Origin: Pseudooceanicola nitratireducens
GTDB lineage: Bacteria; Pseudomonadota; Alphaproteobacteria; Rhodobacterales; Rhodobacteraceae
DNA length: 64,000 nt
Direction: 5' to 3'
Assembly (NCBI RefSeq): GCF_900109195.1
Contig: NZ_FNZG01000004.1
Span: 248,001 to 312,000 of the forward strand
Shown: one piece after another, positions 3,630-39,306 of the stretch
How the letters are laid out: each line of letters starts with the position of its first letter
How positions within the stretch are numbered: the first letter of the stretch is position 1
Program-made: the position numbers and the translations under genes
Notes under the pieces: model-generated
Database searches by the model: none
Told to the model about the DNA's origin: nothing
The model's input: the letters and a program-made list of their open reading frames with translations, nothing else

Positions 3630-4639
3630 TGGATCTTCTGAACGCCTTCGTGGCGCTGTCTAATTTCGTGCTGGTCCCGGCGCTCGCCTATGGCGCGCAG
3701 CTGGCGCTTGGTGCGCTTGGGGTGACGCTGATCTACGGCATCCTGCGGTTCTCGAACTTCGCCCACGGCGACACGATGGCCTTTGGCACCATGGCCGTTG
3801 TGCTGTTCACCTGGCTGTTCCAAAGCTGGGGCATCAACCTTGGTCCGCTGCCGACCGCCCTGCTGGCGCTGCCCTTCGGCATCGTTATCTGCATGGGGCT
3901 GGTACTGCTGACCGACCGCTATATCTATCGCTTCTACCGGGCGCAGAAGGTCAAGCCGGTGGTGCTGGTGATCGTCTCCATGGGGGTGATGTTCGTCACC
4001 AACGGCTTGGTGCGTTTCATCATCGGCCCCGACGATCAGCGCTTTGCCGATGGCGAACGGTTCCTGATCTCGGCCCGGACCTTCAAGGAAATGACGGGCC
4101 TGGACGAAGGGCTGGCGATCAAGACCGGACAGGCGCTGACCGTGGTGATCGCCGTGATCGCCGTGGCGCTGCTGTTCTGGTTCCTGAACCGCACCCGCAC
4201 CGGCAAATCCATGCGCGCCTATTCCGACAACGAGGATCTGGCGCTGCTGTCTGGCATCAACCCCGAGAAGGTCGTGATGGTCACCTGGCTGATCGTCGCC
4301 GCCCTGGCGACCCTTGCCGGCACCCTGTACGGGTTGGACAAGTCGTTCAAACCCTTCACTTATTTCCAGCTGCTTCTGCCCTTCTTCGCGGCGGCCATCG
4401 TTGGCGGGCTGGGATCTCCGATCGGCGCGATCGTGGGCGGGTTCGTCATCGCCTTTTCCGAGGTGCTGATCACCTATGCCTGGAAAAAGGTGCTGACCTA
4501 CGCCCTGCCCGAGACGCTGGCGCCTGACGGGCTCGCCCAGCTTCTGTCCACGGATTACAAGTTCGCTGTGTCCTTCGTCATCCTGCTGGTGGTGCTGCTG
4601 TTCCGCCCGACCGGCCTGTTCAAGGGGAAATCGGTATGA
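3629..4639 (+). CDS. Liv-type ABC transporter permease (LivH-like)
   Basis: This 336-residue inner-membrane permease of the BPD_transp_2 family has about eight hydrophobic segments. The N-terminal GALGVTLIYGILRFSNFAHG stretch is the usual LivH signature (TLIYGxLRxxNFAHG), and a later GGLGSPIGAIVGGF segment matches the conserved coupling region. It forms the translocation pore together with the next gene product. The start overlaps the stop of the secreted-protein gene, and the end overlaps the next ATG (ATGA). Confidence 0.92.
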   Translation: MDLLNAFVALSNFVLVPALAYGAQLALGALGVTLIYGILRFSNFAHGDTMAFGTMAVVLFTWLFQSWGINLGPLPTALLALPFGIVICMGLVLLTDRYIYRFYRAQKVKPVVLVIVSMGVMFVTNGLVRFIIGPDDQRFADGERFLISARTFKEMTGLDEGLAIKTGQALTVVIAVIAVALLFWFLNRTRTGKSMRAYSDNEDLALLSGINPEKVVMVTWLIVAALATLAGTLYGLDKSFKPFTYFQLLLPFFAAAIVGGLGSPIGAIVGGFVIAFSEVLITYAWKKVLTYALPETLAPDGLAQLLSTDYKFAVSFVILLVVLLFRPTGLFKGKSV

Positions 4640-5913
4640 AGATGCGCGATGCTGGATTGTTCGCCCTCGTGGCGGCGCTGCTTGTCCTCACGGGCATGAT
4701 GCAAAGCTGGAACCTGGCGCTCCAGATCCTGAACATGGGGCTGATCTCGGCGATCATGGCCCTGGGCGTGAACCTGCAATGGGGCTTTGCCGGGCTGTTC
4801 AACGTCGGTGTCATGGGCTTTGTCGCGCTTGGCGGGCTGGCCGTGGCGCTGACCGCCATGCCGCCCGTGGGCGATGCCTGGCGTGCCGGAGGCCTTGGCG
4901 TCTTCTCGGCGCTGATCGTGGCGGCGGTGGCGATCACCCTGGCCGTGGTGATCTGGCGAAAGCGCCTGCCCGCGCGTGGCTGGCTTGTGGCGGCGGTTCT
5001 TCTGGTCGGGTTCATCCTGTACCGCGAATTGTTTGATCCCGCCCGTGACGCGATCGAGGCGGTGAACCCCGCGCTTCAGGGCAACCTGGGCGGGCTGGGC
5101 TTGCCGGTGCTGTTCTCCTGGCCGGTCGGAGGGCTCCTGGCCGCCGGTGCGGCCTGGCTCATCGGCAAGACGGCCCTTGGGCTGCGCTCCGATTACCTGG
5201 CCATCGCGACGCTTGGCATTGCGGAAATCATCCTGGCCGTAATGAAGAACGAAGACTGGCTGGCGCGTGGCGTGAAGAACGTCATCGGCGTGCCCTCGCC
5301 CCTGCCCACGGCGGTCGAGCTTCAGGAAAACGCCGGTTTTGCCGCGCGGTTTGCCGATCCGATCACCGCCTCGACCATCGGGGTGAAACTGGGCTATGCC
5401 GTTCTTTTTGCTGTGGTTCTTATCGCGCTGATCGTGCTGATGCAGCTGGCGCTGAAATCGCCCTGGGGCCGTATGGTCCGCGCGATCCGCGACAATGAAA
5501 CCGCGGCCGAGGCCATGGGCAAGGACGTCACCCGGCGGCACCTGCAGATCTTCATCCTTGGCTCGGCCATCTGTGGCCTGGCCGGGGCGATGATGACCAC
5601 GCTGGACGGTCAGCTGGTGCCCGGCACCTATCAGCCGCTGCGCTTCACCTTCCTGATCTGGGTCATGGTGATCGTCGGCGGGTCGGGCAACAACTTTGGC
5701 GCAGTTCTGGGCGGCATGCTGATCTGGTTCCTCTGGGTTCAGGTCGAACCCGTGGGCGCCTGGCTGATCGGCGCGCTGACCAGCGGTCTGCCCGAGGGCG
5801 CGTTCAAGGACCACCTGATGGACAGCGCGGCATATATGCGTTTGTTCACAATGGGTTTGGTCATGCTCCTCGTGTTGCGCTTCAGCCCGCGTGGCCTGAT
5901 CCCGGAGCGTTGA
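4636..5913 (+). CDS. Liv-type ABC transporter permease (LivM-like)
   Basis: This 425-residue inner-membrane permease is the second BPD_transp_2 subunit. The GVNLQWGFAGLFNVGVMGF segment matches the LivM consensus (NLxxGxxGLxNxGxxxF), and RAIRDNETAAEAMGKD is the cytoplasmic EAA-like loop contacting the ATPases. At 425 residues it is longer than many LivM proteins; the extra length is a hydrophobic insertion around residues 95-160. It overlaps the LivH-like gene by 4 bases and is followed 1 base later by the aminotransferase. Confidence 0.92.
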   Translation: MKMRDAGLFALVAALLVLTGMMQSWNLALQILNMGLISAIMALGVNLQWGFAGLFNVGVMGFVALGGLAVALTAMPPVGDAWRAGGLGVFSALIVAAVAITLAVVIWRKRLPARGWLVAAVLLVGFILYRELFDPARDAIEAVNPALQGNLGGLGLPVLFSWPVGGLLAAGAAWLIGKTALGLRSDYLAIATLGIAEIILAVMKNEDWLARGVKNVIGVPSPLPTAVELQENAGFAARFADPITASTIGVKLGYAVLFAVVLIALIVLMQLALKSPWGRMVRAIRDNETAAEAMGKDVTRRHLQIFILGSAICGLAGAMMTTLDGQLVPGTYQPLRFTFLIWVMVIVGGSGNNFGAVLGGMLIWFLWVQVEPVGAWLIGALTSGLPEGAFKDHLMDSAAYMRLFTMGLVMLLVLRFSPRGLIPER

Positions 5914-5914
5914 T

Positions 5915-7084
5915 ATGACCCGCACCAAAACAACTTTCGCGCCACCGGTCATGGAGGCGCGGCGCTGGCTGTCCGAGGCCCGGCTTGGCGCCGACATGCC
6001 CCTGATCAACGTCAGCCAGGCGGCGCCGGTCGATCCTCCGGTCCTGGCGATGCGCCAGGAAATCGCGCGGCTGGCGGTCGAGGAACCGCAGGCGCATCTC
6101 TACGGTCCCGTATTGGGCCTTGGGGGGTTGCGCGAAGAGGTCGCGGCGCAATGGCTTACAGCGTATGGCGGTGAGATCGGGGCCTCCCGCGTCGCCATCA
6201 CCTCGGGCTGTAACGAGGCCTTCTGCGCCACCATCGCCACCCTTCTGGACGAAGGCGACGAGGTGCTGTTGCCGGTGCCCTGGTACTTCAACCACAAGAT
6301 GGCGCTGGACATGATCGGCGGCGTCTCGGTGCCCCTGCCGGTGGACGAGGCGATGCTGCCGCGTCTGGATCTGGCCGAGGATCTGATCACCGACCGCACC
6401 CGCGCCATCGCGCTGGTCAGCCCCAATAATCCGACCGGCGTGGAATATCCGCCCGAACTGATCGGGGCCTTCTTCGATCTGTGCCAGCGGCGCGGGATCA
6501 CCCTGATCCTGGATGAGACCTATCGCGATTTCCATTCCTCGGGCGCGGCCCCGCATGATCTGTTCACCCGGCCCGACTGGGACCGGACGCTGGTGCAACT
6601 TTACAGTTTTTCAAAGGCTTACCGCCTGACTGGCCACCGGGTCGGGGCGCTTGTCACGTCACCCGCGCGGCTGGCCGAGGTCGAGAAGTACCTGGACACC
6701 GTGACCATCTGCCCGGCGCAGCTGGGGCAATATGCGGCGCTTTGGGGGATGCAGAACCTGGGCGAATGGCTGGCCGGAGAACGCGCCGAGATCCTGTCGC
6801 GCGGTCGCGCGATCCGCGACGGCTTTGGCCCGTTGCAGGCCGCCGGCTGGCGTCTGCGCGGGGCCGGTGCCTATTTCGCCTATCTTGACCATCCGTTTGA
6901 CGCGCCCTCGGATCAGATCGCGCGGCGGCTGGTGGCCGAGGCGGGGATCCTGATGCTGCCCGGCACGATGTTCACGCCCGAGGGCGATGCCAACGGCCAG
7001 CGCCAGATGCGCGTGGCCTTTGCCAACCTGGATACCGACGGGATTGCCGGGATGATTGATCGGTTGGCGGGGTTTTCCGGGTAG
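5915..7084 (+). CDS. PLP-dependent aminotransferase (class I/II)
   Basis: This 389-residue fold-type I aminotransferase has the PLP Schiff-base lysine at K234 in SFSKAYRLTGHRVG, the cofactor Asp at D200 in LILDETY, the NNPTG motif at 171-175 and the C-terminal carboxylate-binding Arg in QMRVAF. It is cytoplasmic and probably transaminates the imported substrate or a product of it. The ATG lies 1 base after the LivM-like stop, making it the last gene of the importer operon. The co-transcription suggests the imported compound is an amino acid or becomes one, but substrate identity is inference. Confidence 0.9.
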   Translation: MTRTKTTFAPPVMEARRWLSEARLGADMPLINVSQAAPVDPPVLAMRQEIARLAVEEPQAHLYGPVLGLGGLREEVAAQWLTAYGGEIGASRVAITSGCNEAFCATIATLLDEGDEVLLPVPWYFNHKMALDMIGGVSVPLPVDEAMLPRLDLAEDLITDRTRAIALVSPNNPTGVEYPPELIGAFFDLCQRRGITLILDETYRDFHSSGAAPHDLFTRPDWDRTLVQLYSFSKAYRLTGHRVGALVTSPARLAEVEKYLDTVTICPAQLGQYAALWGMQNLGEWLAGERAEILSRGRAIRDGFGPLQAAGWRLRGAGAYFAYLDHPFDAPSDQIARRLVAEAGILMLPGTMFTPEGDANGQRQMRVAFANLDTDGIAGMIDRLAGFSG

Positions 7085-7132
7085 GAGTCGCGGCCGTTTC
7101 GCCTGTGCGCATCCGTTTGAGTTGAAGAAATA

Positions 7133-7318
7133 AGGGCAGCGCCGTCCCGCGGGGTGGCGCACAAGCGCCGCCCGTCGCACCAAAGGCGTGCCTGAAAATT
7201 TCGGCGCACCTCTGGTGCGACGGGGGCGGCCCCTCTCAGCGATTGCAAGCAATCGCTTGCCGGGCAACGGGCCGCTGCCCGGCGTAAACGCCGGGCGGGC
7301 CTCCTGTCATGGGCCTGC
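7133..7318 (+). repeat. dispersed modular palindromic repeat, copy A (fills the 7085-7488 gap)
   Basis: The 404-base gap between the aminotransferase and PpiD-like genes is mostly this repeat. Module 1 (AGGGCAGCG...GGTGGCGC...GCGCCGCCC) is followed by a copy-specific hairpin (GTCGCACCA at 7179 pairing with TGGTGCGAC ending near 7222). Next comes module 2, a perfect palindrome AGCGATTGC/GCAATCGCT (about 7239-7258), and then module 3, CCCGGCG-TAAA-CGCCGGG (about 7278-7295). The same modules recur on the minus strand at 49910-50030 and, without module 2, at 51975-52078. No convincing ORF lies in it. Confidence 0.75.
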
Positions 7319-7488
7319 GCCCGAGCGCAACACCGCATTCCCATCAAACTCCTGTCATCCCAAGGACATTTCCCGCGCCGATCCCACGCAACGCGCGGTG
7401 CGCCCCTTGCCCCGCTGCCGGTGGCACAATAGACATGGGCGACAAGACCGCCCGCGTCACAGTACGGGCGAACACAAGGGATGCATTT

Positions 7489-9327
7489 ATGGCAAGCAAG
7501 AGTGGCAAGACAGCCGTCTGGATTCTGATGGGTCTTCTGATCCTTGGCCTCGGTGGCTTCGGCGCGACCAGCTTTACCGGCAACGTCCGGTCCATCGGCT
7601 CGGTCGGGGATCGCGACATCTCGGTCAATGAATACGGCCGGGCCCTGCAGAACGAAATGCGCGCGTTCGAGGCCCAGACCGGCCAGGCCGTGTCGCTGGC
7701 AGATGCGCAGGCCATGGGTCTGGACCGCCGCGTGCTGGCCCAGCTTATGACCGCCGCCGCCATCGACAACGAAGCCAGCCGCATCGGCCTGTCGGTCGGC
7801 GATGAAACCCTGGCTCGCCAGGTGCAGAACATCCCCGCCTTCCAGGGGGTCGACGGCAAGTTCGACCGAGACGCCTATAAGTTCGCCATCGACCGCGTCG
7901 GCATGAGCGAGGCAGAGTTCGAACGCGGGCTGCGCCAGGAAACCTCGCGCGCGCTATTGCAGGGGGCCGTGGTCTCGGGCCGCGCCCTGCCCGCGCCCTA
8001 CGTCGACACGGTGCTGGCCTATTTCGCCGAACGCCGCCGCGTGACCTGGACCCGGGTCGAGGCGTCCTCGCTTGAGGCCGAGGACTACACCCCGTCCGAG
8101 GAAGAGCTGAAGGCGCTGTTCGAGGAAGAGATCGAGCAGTTCACCCTGCCCGAGCGCAAGCGCATCACCTACGCCTGGCTGACGCCGGAAATGATCCTTG
8201 ACCAGGTCGAGATCGACGAGGCCCTGCTGCGCCGCGAATACGAGGCCCGCGCCGATCAGTACAACGTGCCTGAACGCCGGCTTGTGGAACGTCTGATCTA
8301 TGCCGACGACGGCCGCGCCGACATGGCCCGCGAAAAGCTGGACAATGGTGAGGCCGATTTCGAGGCACTGGTGGCCGAACGTGGCCTGGCGCTGACCGAC
8401 ATCGACATGGGCGACGTCACCATCGGCGATCTGGACGAGGCCGGCGAAGCCGTCTTTGCTGCCCAGTCCGGTGAGGTCGTGGGCCCCCTGCCGACCGCGC
8501 TTGGACCGGCCTTCTTCCGCGTGAACGGCATCCTCGCCGCCGAGGAAACCACCTTTGAAGAGGCAGAGCCCGACCTGCGTCAGGAACTGGCCTTTGACCG
8601 CGCCCGCCGTCAGGTCGCCAATTCCGCCGAACCGGCCGAAGATCTGCTGGCCGGGGGCGCAACGCTGGAGGACCTCGCTGCCGAGACCGACATGATCCTG
8701 GGCAGCGTCGACTGGGCCGAAGGCCAAAGCGAAGGCATCGCCGCCTATGAAGGCTTCGAGGCCGCCGCCACCGCCCTGGCCGAAGGCGACTATCCGGAGG
8801 TTCTGCAACTGGACGACGGCGGCATCTTTGCCATGCGTCTGGACGAGGTTCTGGAACCGACCCCGTCGGAATTCGACGCCGTACGCGAGCGTGTGGTGAA
8901 CATTTTCGAAACCCGCCGGTCGATGGACCGTCTGCGCGCCCGCGCAGAAGACCTGGTGGCAACCCTGGGCGAGACCTCGGATTTCGGCACGCTCGGCCTT
9001 GAGGTGGAAACCGAAGAGGCGCTGACCCGCCAAAGCTCGGTCCTGGGTGCGCCCGAGGATTTCGTCACCCGCGCCTTCAGCATGGAGCCGGGCCAGGTCG
9101 AGATCGTCGATGGCTTTGGTGCCGTCCTGATCCTGCGCCTGGAAGAGGTGCTGCCGCCGAACCTGGAAGACCCCGATGTCGCCGCCGCGCGCACCGGCCT
9201 GGAACAGCAGCTGCAATCCTCGGTCGCGCAGGACATCTACCGCATCTTTGCAGAAGATCTGCGGGCGCGTGCCGGTGTCGAACTGGACCAGCAGGCCATC
9301 AACGCGGTGCACGTCAACTTCCAGTAA
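7489..9327 (+). CDS. PpiD-like membrane-anchored peptidyl-prolyl isomerase/chaperone (SurA_N domain)
   Basis: The protein has 612 residues. A single N-terminal membrane anchor (about residues 9-29, VWILMGLLILGLGGFG) is followed by a SurA_N_3 domain (GDRDISVNEYGRALQNEMR, then the FDRDAYKFAIDRVGMSEAEF segment) and a PpiC-like region around 225-360. The large periplasmic part is acidic. PpiD-type proteins fold exported and outer-membrane proteins at the periplasmic side of the inner membrane. I chose the ATG at 7489 because AAGGGA lies 8 bases upstream and it places the anchor at the N-terminus. An in-frame ATG at 7435 would add 18 polar residues. Confidence 0.88.
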   Translation: MASKSGKTAVWILMGLLILGLGGFGATSFTGNVRSIGSVGDRDISVNEYGRALQNEMRAFEAQTGQAVSLADAQAMGLDRRVLAQLMTAAAIDNEASRIGLSVGDETLARQVQNIPAFQGVDGKFDRDAYKFAIDRVGMSEAEFERGLRQETSRALLQGAVVSGRALPAPYVDTVLAYFAERRRVTWTRVEASSLEAEDYTPSEEELKALFEEEIEQFTLPERKRITYAWLTPEMILDQVEIDEALLRREYEARADQYNVPERRLVERLIYADDGRADMAREKLDNGEADFEALVAERGLALTDIDMGDVTIGDLDEAGEAVFAAQSGEVVGPLPTALGPAFFRVNGILAAEETTFEEAEPDLRQELAFDRARRQVANSAEPAEDLLAGGATLEDLAAETDMILGSVDWAEGQSEGIAAYEGFEAAATALAEGDYPEVLQLDDGGIFAMRLDEVLEPTPSEFDAVRERVVNIFETRRSMDRLRARAEDLVATLGETSDFGTLGLEVETEEALTRQSSVLGAPEDFVTRAFSMEPGQVEIVDGFGAVLILRLEEVLPPNLEDPDVAAARTGLEQQLQSSVAQDIYRIFAEDLRARAGVELDQQAINAVHVNFQ

Positions 9328-36575: not shown

Positions 36576-37496
36576 CTATTCCGCGGGCGGCATCACGGTT
36601 TTGCGCGGGCGCAGCGTCGGGGCCTGCTGCACGACGAACTGCGCATAGACCAGGTACAGCCCGGATCCGACGACGATCGCCGCGCCCAGGAAGACCGAGC
36701 TGTCGGGGATCTCGTTGAAGAAGGCCGCGCCGATCAGCACCATCCAGACGAATTGCAGGTTCATCAGCGGCGTCGCCGTATAGGCCGGCAACAGGCGCAG
36801 CGCGATCACAAGAAGCCAGCGCGCGCCGAAGAGAAGCGCGGCATAGGCCACCGCCAGCCCCAGATCCGTCAGCGGCATTGGCGTGAAGACAAAGGGCAGC
36901 GCCGCGCCCATCACCAGCATGTTCAACAGGTTGGGATAGAAGACCAGCGCCAGGGAATTCCGTTCATACCGGCCGACATAGCGCGCCATGACCATGGACA
37001 GCGTGCCGGACAGACAGGCCCCGAAGGCGATCAGATGGCCCCATGTCGCCGCATGCAGCCCTTCCGGGAACAGGCACAGCACGCCCAGGAAGCCGATGGC
37101 CAGCGCCACCCAGACCTTCAGCGCCACCCGTTCGCCCAGGATCGGTCCCGACATCATCCCCGCCATCAGCGGCATCAGCCCGATAAATATGAAGACCTCG
37201 GCGAAGGGCAGCAGGCGGAAGGCATAGAAAAAGGCCACGCCCGCGATCACCGTTGCAACCGACCGCACCGCCATGGCCCAGGGCCGCGTGGTGCGCAGCC
37301 CGCCCGGTGCCGGGGCGCTGCGATTGGCAAGGTAACAGAAGAAGGCCACCAGCCCGCCGGACACGGCATAAAGCTGCGGGGCGGCGTATCCGCCGGCCAG
37401 CAGCTTGGTGATCCCGTCCGCGGACGAGATCAGCGCCGTGTAAATCAGAACGAATCCCGCCCCGGTCAAAGTTGCAAGGGCGGCTTGGGGCTTCAT
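36576..37496 (-). CDS. EamA/DMT-family membrane transporter
   Basis: This 306-residue inner-membrane protein has about ten hydrophobic segments in two EamA repeats. Repeat 1 includes LRTTRPWAMAVRSVATVIAG and AFFYAFRLLPFAEVFIFIGL; repeat 2 includes YTATPLMNLQFVWMVLIGAA. Members of this family usually export small metabolites such as amino acids. The ATG overlaps the stop of the 368-residue gene by 4 bases, so it is translated in the same unit as that gene and the upstream repeat protein. This context suggests export of something made by them (inference). Confidence 0.87.
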   Translation of the reverse strand: MKPQAALATLTGAGFVLIYTALISSADGITKLLAGGYAAPQLYAVSGGLVAFFCYLANRSAPAPGGLRTTRPWAMAVRSVATVIAGVAFFYAFRLLPFAEVFIFIGLMPLMAGMMSGPILGERVALKVWVALAIGFLGVLCLFPEGLHAATWGHLIAFGACLSGTLSMVMARYVGRYERNSLALVFYPNLLNMLVMGAALPFVFTPMPLTDLGLAVAYAALLFGARWLLVIALRLLPAYTATPLMNLQFVWMVLIGAAFFNEIPDSSVFLGAAIVVGSGLYLVYAQFVVQQAPTLRPRKTVMPPAE

Positions 37497-38599
37497 GCTG
37501 TCAGTTCTCCCATCATGGGGGTGGCGCGCATGCCGGTGCGGGCGAAACCGGCGAAGAATTTGGCGAAATCCTCGGTCGCGGCTTCGGCGCGCAGCAGGAT
37601 GTCGGCACTGTCGGCGCTGACGTTGTCGCAGACGTAGTCGCGCATCAGGTGCCAGTCGGACGACCGGCGCTGATCCAGGCCGTACATGATCTGGGACATC
37701 TCGCGCAGCGGTGCCGGACGATAGGGATCCGCGTGAAAGCTGACCGGACCCGGGCGCAGGCTGCCGGCAAACGGCTGGCCGCCGGACTGGGCCCCGCATT
37801 GGGCCAGGGCCCAGTTGCACACAAGGTATTCGTGATAGTCGTCTTGCCGCACTGCTTCGTTTCCTTCGGCGACGGCAAAGCGTGCCGTCACTTCCTTGAC
37901 GGCTGTGACCCACTCTTCCGGGGGGGTCTCGCCGCAGTAGTTCATTGCCACCAAGACTTCGGCCAGAAGGTCCCAATTGCAATCCAGAAACGCGAGGGTG
38001 CCCGTAAATACAAGGCTTTGACGCGTATCCGCACAGATCGTCAAATCGCGCCGACCGTATTCGGATAGGTAAAACGCGATGTGAGTCAGTTCATACGCGG
38101 CTTTCTTGTTCGGCACAGCAAAAGTTGCGGGTCTTGACACAAACTTCCGCAACCTGTCGTTGATCATATTCGCATCCGCGTCACTGCTGACGCCAACCCG
38201 CGACAGCAGGCGAATGGCCTCACCGCGCTGCAGGTCCGACAGCTCGGCCTCGACCAGGCCCTGATCGGCGATCCAGCGCGCCAGTCGTTCGGATTTGCCG
38301 TGTCCCAGGCCCAGGGCCTCGAGATCCTGGCAGATTGACAGGATGAAGCGATAGTATTGCGGGAAGAACTCCAGCCGGGCCTCGATCGTGTCGTAGAAGC
38401 TGCGGTAGGTTTCCAGCGCGTCGCGCGGGACGTCCTGGCCGGTGCATTCCAGAATGTTCAGTATTTCCGCATTTTCCTTCAGCCAGAACACATCGTCCAG
38501 GTCACGGCGATGGTGGGCGAAGGCTTCCAGAAGGGCCGCGGTGCGCGCGGCCCTCTGATCGCTGCGGGAGGGGAAGGAAAGGCGGATGACATTGGACAT
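37493..38599 (-). CDS. uncharacterised helical protein in the repeat-protein operon
   Basis: This 368-residue soluble protein has no signal peptide or membrane segment, and I do not recognise a characterised family. It appears mostly helical. A notable motif, ELTHIAFYLSEYG (residues 170-182), has His, Tyr and aromatic residues as in an active or binding site. Several Cys (C51, C90, C189 and others) are scattered without a metal pattern. A strong AAGGAGA site precedes the ATG. The gene follows the repeat-protein gene by 59 bases and overlaps the EamA gene by 4 bases. It could process or bind the repeat protein, but that is inference only. Confidence 0.8.
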   Translation of the reverse strand: MSNVIRLSFPSRSDQRAARTAALLEAFAHHRRDLDDVFWLKENAEILNILECTGQDVPRDALETYRSFYDTIEARLEFFPQYYRFILSICQDLEALGLGHGKSERLARWIADQGLVEAELSDLQRGEAIRLLSRVGVSSDADANMINDRLRKFVSRPATFAVPNKKAAYELTHIAFYLSEYGRRDLTICADTRQSLVFTGTLAFLDCNWDLLAEVLVAMNYCGETPPEEWVTAVKEVTARFAVAEGNEAVRQDDYHEYLVCNWALAQCGAQSGGQPFAGSLRPGPVSFHADPYRPAPLREMSQIMYGLDQRRSSDWHLMRDYVCDNVSADSADILLRAEAATEDFAKFFAGFARTGMRATPMMGELTA

Positions 38600-38658
38600 G
38601 ATATTCTCCTTTGATCACCGGGGCTTTACCCACCCCGTCCCGTAGTCGGTGGTCTGGC

Positions 38659-39306
38659 TCAGGAGCCGGAGGCGAAGGCCTGAACCGCGTCACCTGCGGC
38701 GGCTTCGGATTTCACCGGGGCGGAGCCGGAGGCGAAGGCTTCAACCGCGTCGCCAGTCGAGGCGTCGGAGGTGACCGGAGCGGAGCCGGAGGCGAACATT
38801 TCGGTCGCGTCGCCGGTCGAGGCGTCGGAGGTCACCGGAGCGGAGCCGGAAGCGAACATCTCGGTCGCGTCGCCGGTCGAAGCGTCGGAAGTCACCGGAG
38901 CGGAGCCGGAAGCGAACATTTCGACCGCATCGCCTGCGCCCATTTTCGAGGCAGCCGGAGCCGAACCCGAGGCGAACATCTGAACCGCGTCACCGGTGGA
39001 GGCGTCCGAGGTCAGCGGAGCGGAACCGGAGGCGAACATTTCGACCGCATCGCCGGTGGCAGCCGTCGACATGGTGGGTGCGGAACCGGAGGCAAACAGC
39101 TCGACCGCGTCGCCGGTCAGGGCCCGAACCGAGGCCGAAGGGGCAGAACCCGAAGCGAACATCTGGGTCGCGTCACCGGTCAGCGAATGGGACGAAACAG
39201 GGGCGGAACCAGAGGCAAACATCTCGGTCGCGTCGCCGGAGAACATGTCGTTTTCCTGAACCTTAACAGCGACTTGAGCGGATTTGATTTTACGAATTGC
39301 AGACAT
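38659..39306 (-). CDS. ten-repeat protein, possible multi-core peptide precursor
   Basis: The protein has 215 residues. Residues 1-23 are a short basic/amphipathic leader (MSAIRKIKSAQVAVKVQEND, then MFS). Residues 24-215 are ten tandem repeats of 20 residues (one of 21, the last cut at 11), each built on GDAxxMFASGSAP followed by a seven-residue spacer such as VTSDAST. Repeats 6-8 have the same spacer. There is no signal peptide or membrane helix. The ATG at 39306 is chosen because it starts the conserved-looking leader and follows GGGAG. The first gene of an apparent three-gene unit, it may be a substrate of the next two products; a structural or phase-variable role is also possible. Confidence 0.78.
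   Translation of the reverse strand: MSAIRKIKSAQVAVKVQENDMFSGDATEMFASGSAPVSSHSLTGDATQMFASGSAPSASVRALTGDAVELFASGSAPTMSTAATGDAVEMFASGSAPLTSDASTGDAVQMFASGSAPAASKMGAGDAVEMFASGSAPVTSDASTGDATEMFASGSAPVTSDASTGDATEMFASGSAPVTSDASTGDAVEAFASGSAPVKSEAAAGDAVQAFASGS
38662..39237 (-). repeat. 60-bp tandem coding repeats (ten units)
   Basis: The repeat block of the preceding gene has a strict 60-base period, one unit being 63. Units at about 38758-38937 are nearly identical in DNA, indicating recent duplication, while outer units differ at many third positions yet keep the amino-acid motif, indicating selection on the protein. The period leaves all six frames largely free of stops. Confidence 0.9.

Follow-up and report, generated by a model that had tools for sequence, protein, structure and literature searches.

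A putative multi-core peptide system of Rhodobacteraceae built on a tandem-array precursor and a DUF6902 protein

Introduction

Bacterial ribosomally synthesized and post-translationally modified peptides (RiPPs) of the multi-core kind, such as the plesiocin-type graspetides and the cyanobactins, carry several cores on one precursor and employ other enzymes than the one considered here. In fungi, the Kex2-processed repeat proteins and the dikaritins (ustiloxin) have many copies of one short core per precursor, separated by linkers, and include pheromones (PMC7329392). The FxSxx-COOH peptides are single C-terminal peptides that go with a radical-SAM/SPASM protein and a metallopeptidase (PMC7159879). 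A member of the protein family DUF6895 is called a lasso-peptide epimerase in the title of a recent study (Shi et al., ACS Catal 2026, doi 10.1021/acscatal.5c08590), as given in the reference list of PMC13352647. The unit under study, at positions 36576 to 39306 of a 64,000-nucleotide stretch (the window) of Pseudooceanicola nitratireducens contig NZ_FNZG01000004.1, consists of three genes on the minus strand that encode a repeat precursor, a DUF6902 protein related to DUF6895 and an EamA-family transporter. From sequence comparison, we favor, with slightly better than even confidence, a multi-core RiPP system in which DUF6902 modifies, and probably epimerizes, every core to yield one short peptide that is perhaps a signal.

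The repeat precursor

The precursor (38659..39306, minus strand) has 215 residues when read from its ATG. Its leader, residues 1-23 (MSAIRKIKSAQVAVKVQENDMFS), is encoded by 39238..39306 of the minus strand, and the first GD follows directly at residues 24-25. An anchored reading of the repeats places ten tandem units, each GDAxx(M/L/A)FASGS(AP) plus a spacer, at 38662..39237 of the same strand. The FASGS pentads of units 1-5 lie at 39205-39219, 39145-39159, 39082-39096, 39022-39036 and 38962-38976, and those of units 6-10 at 38902-38916, 38842-38856, 38782-38796, 38722-38736 and 38662-38676, all on the minus strand. In the tenth unit (38662..38676, minus strand) FASGS is followed directly by the stop codon, and the natural C-terminus of the protein is the end of a core. 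The pentads begin at residues 30, 50, 71, 91 and so on to 211, which gives a unit spacing of 20 with a single exception of 21. A preliminary description of this DNA, made from the letters alone, had proposed ten 20-residue units with a near-universal FASGSAP; the ten units and the motif (nine of ten, the last being FASGS-stop) stand. It had also taken a segment of 13 to 20 residues as the constant unit, which proves too long: FASGS is present in all ten units and is the constant part, while the spacer and the preceding residues, except for the G six positions upstream, vary within the genome. The residue immediately before FASGS is M, but L once and A twice. Ten copies of a pentamer are well above chance, as 2000 composition shuffles never gave more than five.

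The repeats lack cysteine, as had already been remarked, and so does the whole window precursor, which has no hydrophobic signal segment either (the highest mean hydropathy over 19 residues is 0.65); because of these two properties the protein is probably cytoplasmic. It falls below every Pfam cut-off, and at E up to 1 it matches none of the NCBIfam models in a library not confirmed to include the FxSxx-COOH peptide model. Matches to PHROG families (best E 2.7e-6, a family of unknown function) are weak and were given no weight. Seven other precursors, when scanned against Pfam and NCBIfam, gave scattered weak matches; that of UBA_HYPK to the L092 precursor exceeds its cut-off by bits (30.2 against 27) and was taken as chance.

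Association of precursor and DUF6902 protein

Of at least 338 relatives confirmed in the contig scan, 80 loci were kept, and all counts out of 80 given here rest on them. In 80 of 80 loci, a repeat precursor lies upstream of the DUF6902 gene on the same strand, with 50-75 bases between the precursor end and the enzyme in most loci and 342 in L066. When 60 genomes were searched, precursor and DUF6902 exceeded the cut-off in an identical set of 23, that of the window included, and neither did so in the other 37; one of these 37, G038, has a DUF6902 match below the cut-off in a protein that Pfam assigns to DUF6895. Among 289 genomes sampled across the class, three have a DUF6902 match over the cut-off, all of them Rhodobacteraceae, and the fourth match, again G038, is below it.

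Within a family sample of Rhodobacteraceae, DUF6902 occurs in 82 of 295 genomes. The window precursor, used as a single query, finds matches in 69 of the 295, 68 of which are DUF6902 genomes; the sole match outside them is weak and lies in a frame of 2969 residues. Fourteen DUF6902 genomes were missed by this query. One (G125) already had a precursor, another (G574) is cut by a contig end and was not among the 12 that were fetched, and ten of those 12 carry a short precursor whose repeats have a different core type, which brings the DUF6902 genomes with a precursor to 79 of 82. No recognizable precursor was found upstream of DUF6902 in L191 (G479) and L201 (G714), where it may lie elsewhere or have been lost. 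Measurements of adjacency cover the 80 loci; in the 68 genomes of the family sample it was read only from listed coordinates.

It had been proposed to check whether homologues of the repeat protein always adjoin the gene for the 368-residue protein; a precursor lies upstream of it in 80 of 80 loci, and 79 of 82 DUF6902 genomes have one. The case named beforehand as refuting the suggestion, a repeat protein without its partner genes, does occur for EamA (16 of 80 loci lack it), whereas for DUF6902 the two genome samples yielded only the weak match in the 2969-residue frame; these samples define the comparison, and seven database proteins without genomic context stand outside it. A leader-plus-core precursor next to a candidate modifying enzyme, in all 80 loci and in the same 23 of 60 genomes, is what a RiPP system should present, and we regard the reading of the pair as RiPP precursor and enzyme as very probable.

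The open reading frame of the metagenome protein P0006 begins to resemble the precursors only after a CobT domain (PF06213), which continues in the same frame as a repeat array with FTSSM at its end; the contig has only 1457 bases and may be chimeric. A conserved hairpin between precursor and enzyme was considered and rejected, since the mean z across 72 intergenic stretches of 45-80 bases is -0.2 relative to dinucleotide shuffles, with 16 stretches below -1 and three below -2; single sequences had looked hairpin-rich.

Uniformity and switching of the core

Within a genome the core is nearly invariant. When units are anchored on the pentad, 639 of 662 pentads from 81 precursors are identical to the one most common in their own genome, a count whose anchor is biased towards identity. 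An independent anchor that ignores positions +1 to +4 covers 79 of the 81 precursors (L068 and L111, with fewer than three anchored units, drop out), and 596 of 615 units then carry the modal tetrad. Most of the 19 deviating units were judged to be false anchors in leaders, read-through or linkers; those of L098 and L105 are true deviants, and these two together with L196 are the exceptions to uniformity within a genome. Pairs of units differ in residue in 5-6% of cases at +1 to +4, false anchors included, compared with 25% at +5 and 16% at +6 (mostly AP), 40-53% at -5 to -1, and 53-69% at the linker positions +7 to +11. The precursor ends exactly with the core tetrad in 73 of 79 cases. In 78 of 81 precursors, a start of loosely similar type precedes the first pentad by 27-50 residues.

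The identity of the cores could simply follow from gene conversion or from repeats having been duplicated recently, with no selection on the product. Some adjacent units are indeed recent full copies, as in L064, where units 3-6 have identical core codons. Where two units have the same residue at +1 to +4, however, the codon differs synonymously in 50-59% of pairs, and the linkers have diverged widely, which makes this explanation very improbable. Because about half of the same-residue core codon pairs differ synonymously, most units, judged by their codons, are not recent copies, and the core residues are held constant.

Between genomes the core changes rapidly. The modal pentads of the 81 precursors are FSSGS (20), FTSGS (18), FTSGL (10), FTSSL (7), FASGS (6) and 14 further types, and distant members have FTCGA, FTTSC, STSSF and other cores. 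A quick tree of 88 enzymes (L113 out, eight rows added) implies 29 or more changes of the pentad; of its 85 inner branches 29 are open, and there are some long end branches. The clearest case is the pair L064 and L067, whose enzymes are 94.8% identical and whose arrays are 7 x FTSGS and 6 x FSSGS, respectively; all units have switched, and the cores of the last units are one base apart (ACT against TCT). The number of main-core copies per precursor ranges from 2 to 16 in the 80 loci. The longest array seen is in L163 (G505), in which a 429-residue open frame upstream of DUF6902 holds 20 FTSGS units, mostly near-identical. Unusual cores (YIAGL, MMCCS, MMSCS, LSPSC, SSTC) occur in L192, L194, L198, L200 and L202, three of them with only two units, and such precursors will be useful for finding the true substrate rule.

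These observations also bear on whether small peptides are freed at all. The repeat protein could work whole, as a cytoplasmic scaffold, sponge or store that DUF6902 modifies or binds, and both the absence of a protease gene from the shared gene order and the lack of a hydrophobic signal segment in the precursor are consistent with that. Uniform cores between free linkers and the switching of whole sets in close relatives nevertheless fit a released product better, and a main-core copy number that varies from 2 to 16, and reaches 20 in L163, is also at odds with a function of the intact protein, which we consider improbable.

The DUF6902 protein and its kinship with DUF6895

The second gene (37493..38599, minus strand) encodes the 368-residue protein proposed to modify the cores. 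The preliminary description could name no family for it, yet Pfam assigns it to DUF6902 (PF21843) with 478 bits against a cut-off of 27 (E 1.8e-143), and it also exceeds the cut-off for DUF6895 (PF21836), with 86 bits against 23.8 (E 2.9e-24). An hhalign comparison of the two families gives 91.5% over 152 columns. The residues in common, Y169, H173, Y177, G182, D210, E214, Y255 and H256, are encoded within 37832..38095 of the minus strand according to alignments A3 and A5 and to hhalign. Y, H, G, D, E, Y and H are invariant in both alignments, and the column matching Y177 is nearly invariant in A5. In A3, the DUF6902 alignment, which draws on 72 of the 80 loci (L113, which is truncated, and L076, L087, L088, L107, L112, L121 and L126 are left out), the shared Y, H, D, E and Y-H residues are present in 73 of 73 rows.

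The AlphaFold model of the protein is almost all helical, with a mean predicted local distance difference test score of 93.7. It thus differs from MslH, the epimerase of the lasso peptide MS-271, which we take to have a metallophosphatase-like fold. Sequence searches at E up to 1 found no PDB match for DUF6902, and Foldseek found none at E 0.001; the fold matches, among which LanC-like, AGE-like and terpene-cyclase-like barrels were considered, lie within the helical background.

DUF6895 genes other than DUF6902 also have a small open reading frame upstream in nine of nine loci read, namely L038, L039, L040, L041, L042 and loci on plasmids from Kitasatospora, Pseudalkalibacillus and two Streptomyces. 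At eight of these loci the frame has a leader that looks similar by eye (e.g. LQNSGLIDMNTTLEQLV), followed by an aromatic or aliphatic stretch; the likeness is least clear in L042, which is from the same bacterial family as the window and has a short enzyme frame (228 residues), and the Streptomyces fungicidicus frame differs. No lasso cluster was seen at the DUF6895 loci read. Matches to DUF6895 below the cut-off occur in G135 and G147, outside these nine loci. In L038 (8050-9738), two similar single-core precursor-like frames, ending in GALVGRWYVYVGTEE and GSLVGPWFVLAGDQT, stand in tandem before one DUF6895 gene. Locus L206, at 3833-7688 of plasmid p1 from Streptomyces fungicidicus, has a small open reading frame and after it an unknown 231-residue gene, a pair of neighboring DUF6895 genes and a hydrolase of the beta-lactamase fold, possibly a two-enzyme peptide cluster. 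A plasmid or phage origin of the system described here was rejected, as DUF6902 had no match in the plasmid collection and the precursor none in the phage collection.

Since the DUF6895 relative is named an epimerase by title, epimerization is, by analogy, the chemistry we propose for DUF6902, at about an even chance. In a different version of the multi-core RiPP reading, the enzyme would act on the near-constant Ser, Thr or Cys at +2 by dehydration, by ester or heterocycle formation or by backbone cleavage. That a relative carries the epimerase name counts against this, as do fold matches no higher than the helical background and the Ala at +2 in the two-unit YIAGL precursor of L192; such chemistry is rather unlikely, though it deserves consideration.

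The EamA transporter and neighboring genes

The third gene (36576..37496, minus strand) encodes an EamA-family transporter of 306 residues, assigned by Pfam with 57 bits against a cut-off of 28, whose ATG overlaps the DUF6902 stop by 4 bases. This identity and overlap, like the placement of the three minus-strand open reading frames and the 23-residue leader, agree with the preliminary description. EamA adjoins the enzyme in 64 of the 80 loci, 57 of which have the 4-base overlap with the enzyme stop, and the other 16 keep precursor and enzyme, with an iron-sulfur gene next to the enzyme in 15 of them. There is accordingly no constant dedicated exporter in these loci; because it adjoins in only 64 of 80, EamA is accessory and not essential.

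The substrates of EamA carriers are for the most part single amino acids and metabolites of that sort. The transporter might even lie outside the system, as a small-metabolite exporter translationally coupled by chance, which would agree with its absence from 16 loci and with the iron-sulfur gene in its place in 15 of these. The retention of the overlap in 57 of 64 loci speaks for a connection, as does the fact that distant members, for example L002 and L004, also have EamA after the enzyme, and we rate a chance coupling as a serious possibility that falls somewhat short of even.

The unit is flanked by an exonuclease-type gene (Exo_endo_phos, xthA-like) and an iron-sulfur assembly gene (Fe-S_biosyn, erpA-like). 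Within the fetched stretches, the xthA-like gene is beside the precursor-enzyme pair in 76 of 80 loci and the erpA-like gene in 74.

Proposed mechanism and significance

The suggestion of a multi-core peptide system is supported in part. The combination of leader, tandem cores and modifying enzyme has good support from the co-occurrence with DUF6902, from its homology and from core identity despite synonymous codons; what has fallen away is the requirement for EamA. In the mechanism we propose, DUF6902 would act in the cytoplasm on the precursor while it is still whole, at each of its cores. Its activity would most likely be that of its DUF6895 relative, peptide epimerization, and the acids and bases would be the shared His, Asp, Glu and Tyr. 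Many copies of one short modified peptide with the core at its end would then be freed by a general protease, exported by EamA, where present, or by another transporter, and read by a specific partner. Because a genome keeps nearly all its copies the same, yet the core switches fast from species to species, recognition of the product is probably highly specific, as expected for a signal or an interference peptide. A wider and more speculative proposal, which we put forward as an outside prospect, is a code throughout the Rhodobacteraceae in which a tandem array gives rise to many modified, probably D-residue-containing, pentapeptide-like copies that serve as a species-specific signal or interference peptide; in this view, the pressure for one uniform message would force the core copies to switch together whenever the code changes.

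Multi-core RiPPs are a known kind and the DUF6895 epimerase has just been named. Open-literature searches, read mostly as listings, returned no description of a tandem-array precursor with DUF6902 and whole-array core switching across Rhodobacteraceae, and a search on multicore RiPPs in Rhodobacteraceae returned none. The gene pair occurs in many marine bacteria of the roseobacter type. It links an enzyme family that has had little study, and that 82 of the 295 Rhodobacteraceae genomes possess, to defined peptide substrates, and the chemistry of the family becomes testable. Core switching is a natural experiment, with copies uniform within a gene and different between close relatives, and it suggests that there is a specific receptor or target. 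Should the product prove to be a signal, these bacteria, which are of ecological importance in the sea, would have a peptide language.

Comparison with known systems

The DUF6895 lasso epimerase, known here by title, is among the closest known systems. Its family is homologous, has conserved residues in common with DUF6902 and likewise has genes beside a small open reading frame; it differs from the system described here, which has a tandem-array precursor, no lasso genes seen alongside and an enzyme of a separate Pfam family, DUF6902. MslH resembles the proposed enzyme in that it serves peptide epimerization in a RiPP, and its title in the reference list of PMC13352647 calls it metal-dependent.

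The FxSxx-COOH precursors likewise end in a C-terminal F-x-S-x-x motif, and their peptides are single and C-terminal (PMC7159879), in contrast to the ten-unit array in the window. An FxsB-type radical-SAM system was rejected, as the genome of the window has no match to FxsB (TIGR04269), in a search that gives sub-cut-off matches in 11 of 14 control genomes.

In the fungal Kex2 and dikaritin precursors, one precursor again carries many copies of one short core between linkers; they are secreted, eukaryotic and cut at dibasic sites, and some go with DUF3328 genes (PMC7329392). The window system, on the other hand, is bacterial and has neither a signal segment nor dibasic linkers in its repeat part. 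With respect to the plesiocin-type graspetides and the cyanobactins, the distinguishing feature is the enzyme, as the shared gene order here offers no candidate for modification other than DUF6902.
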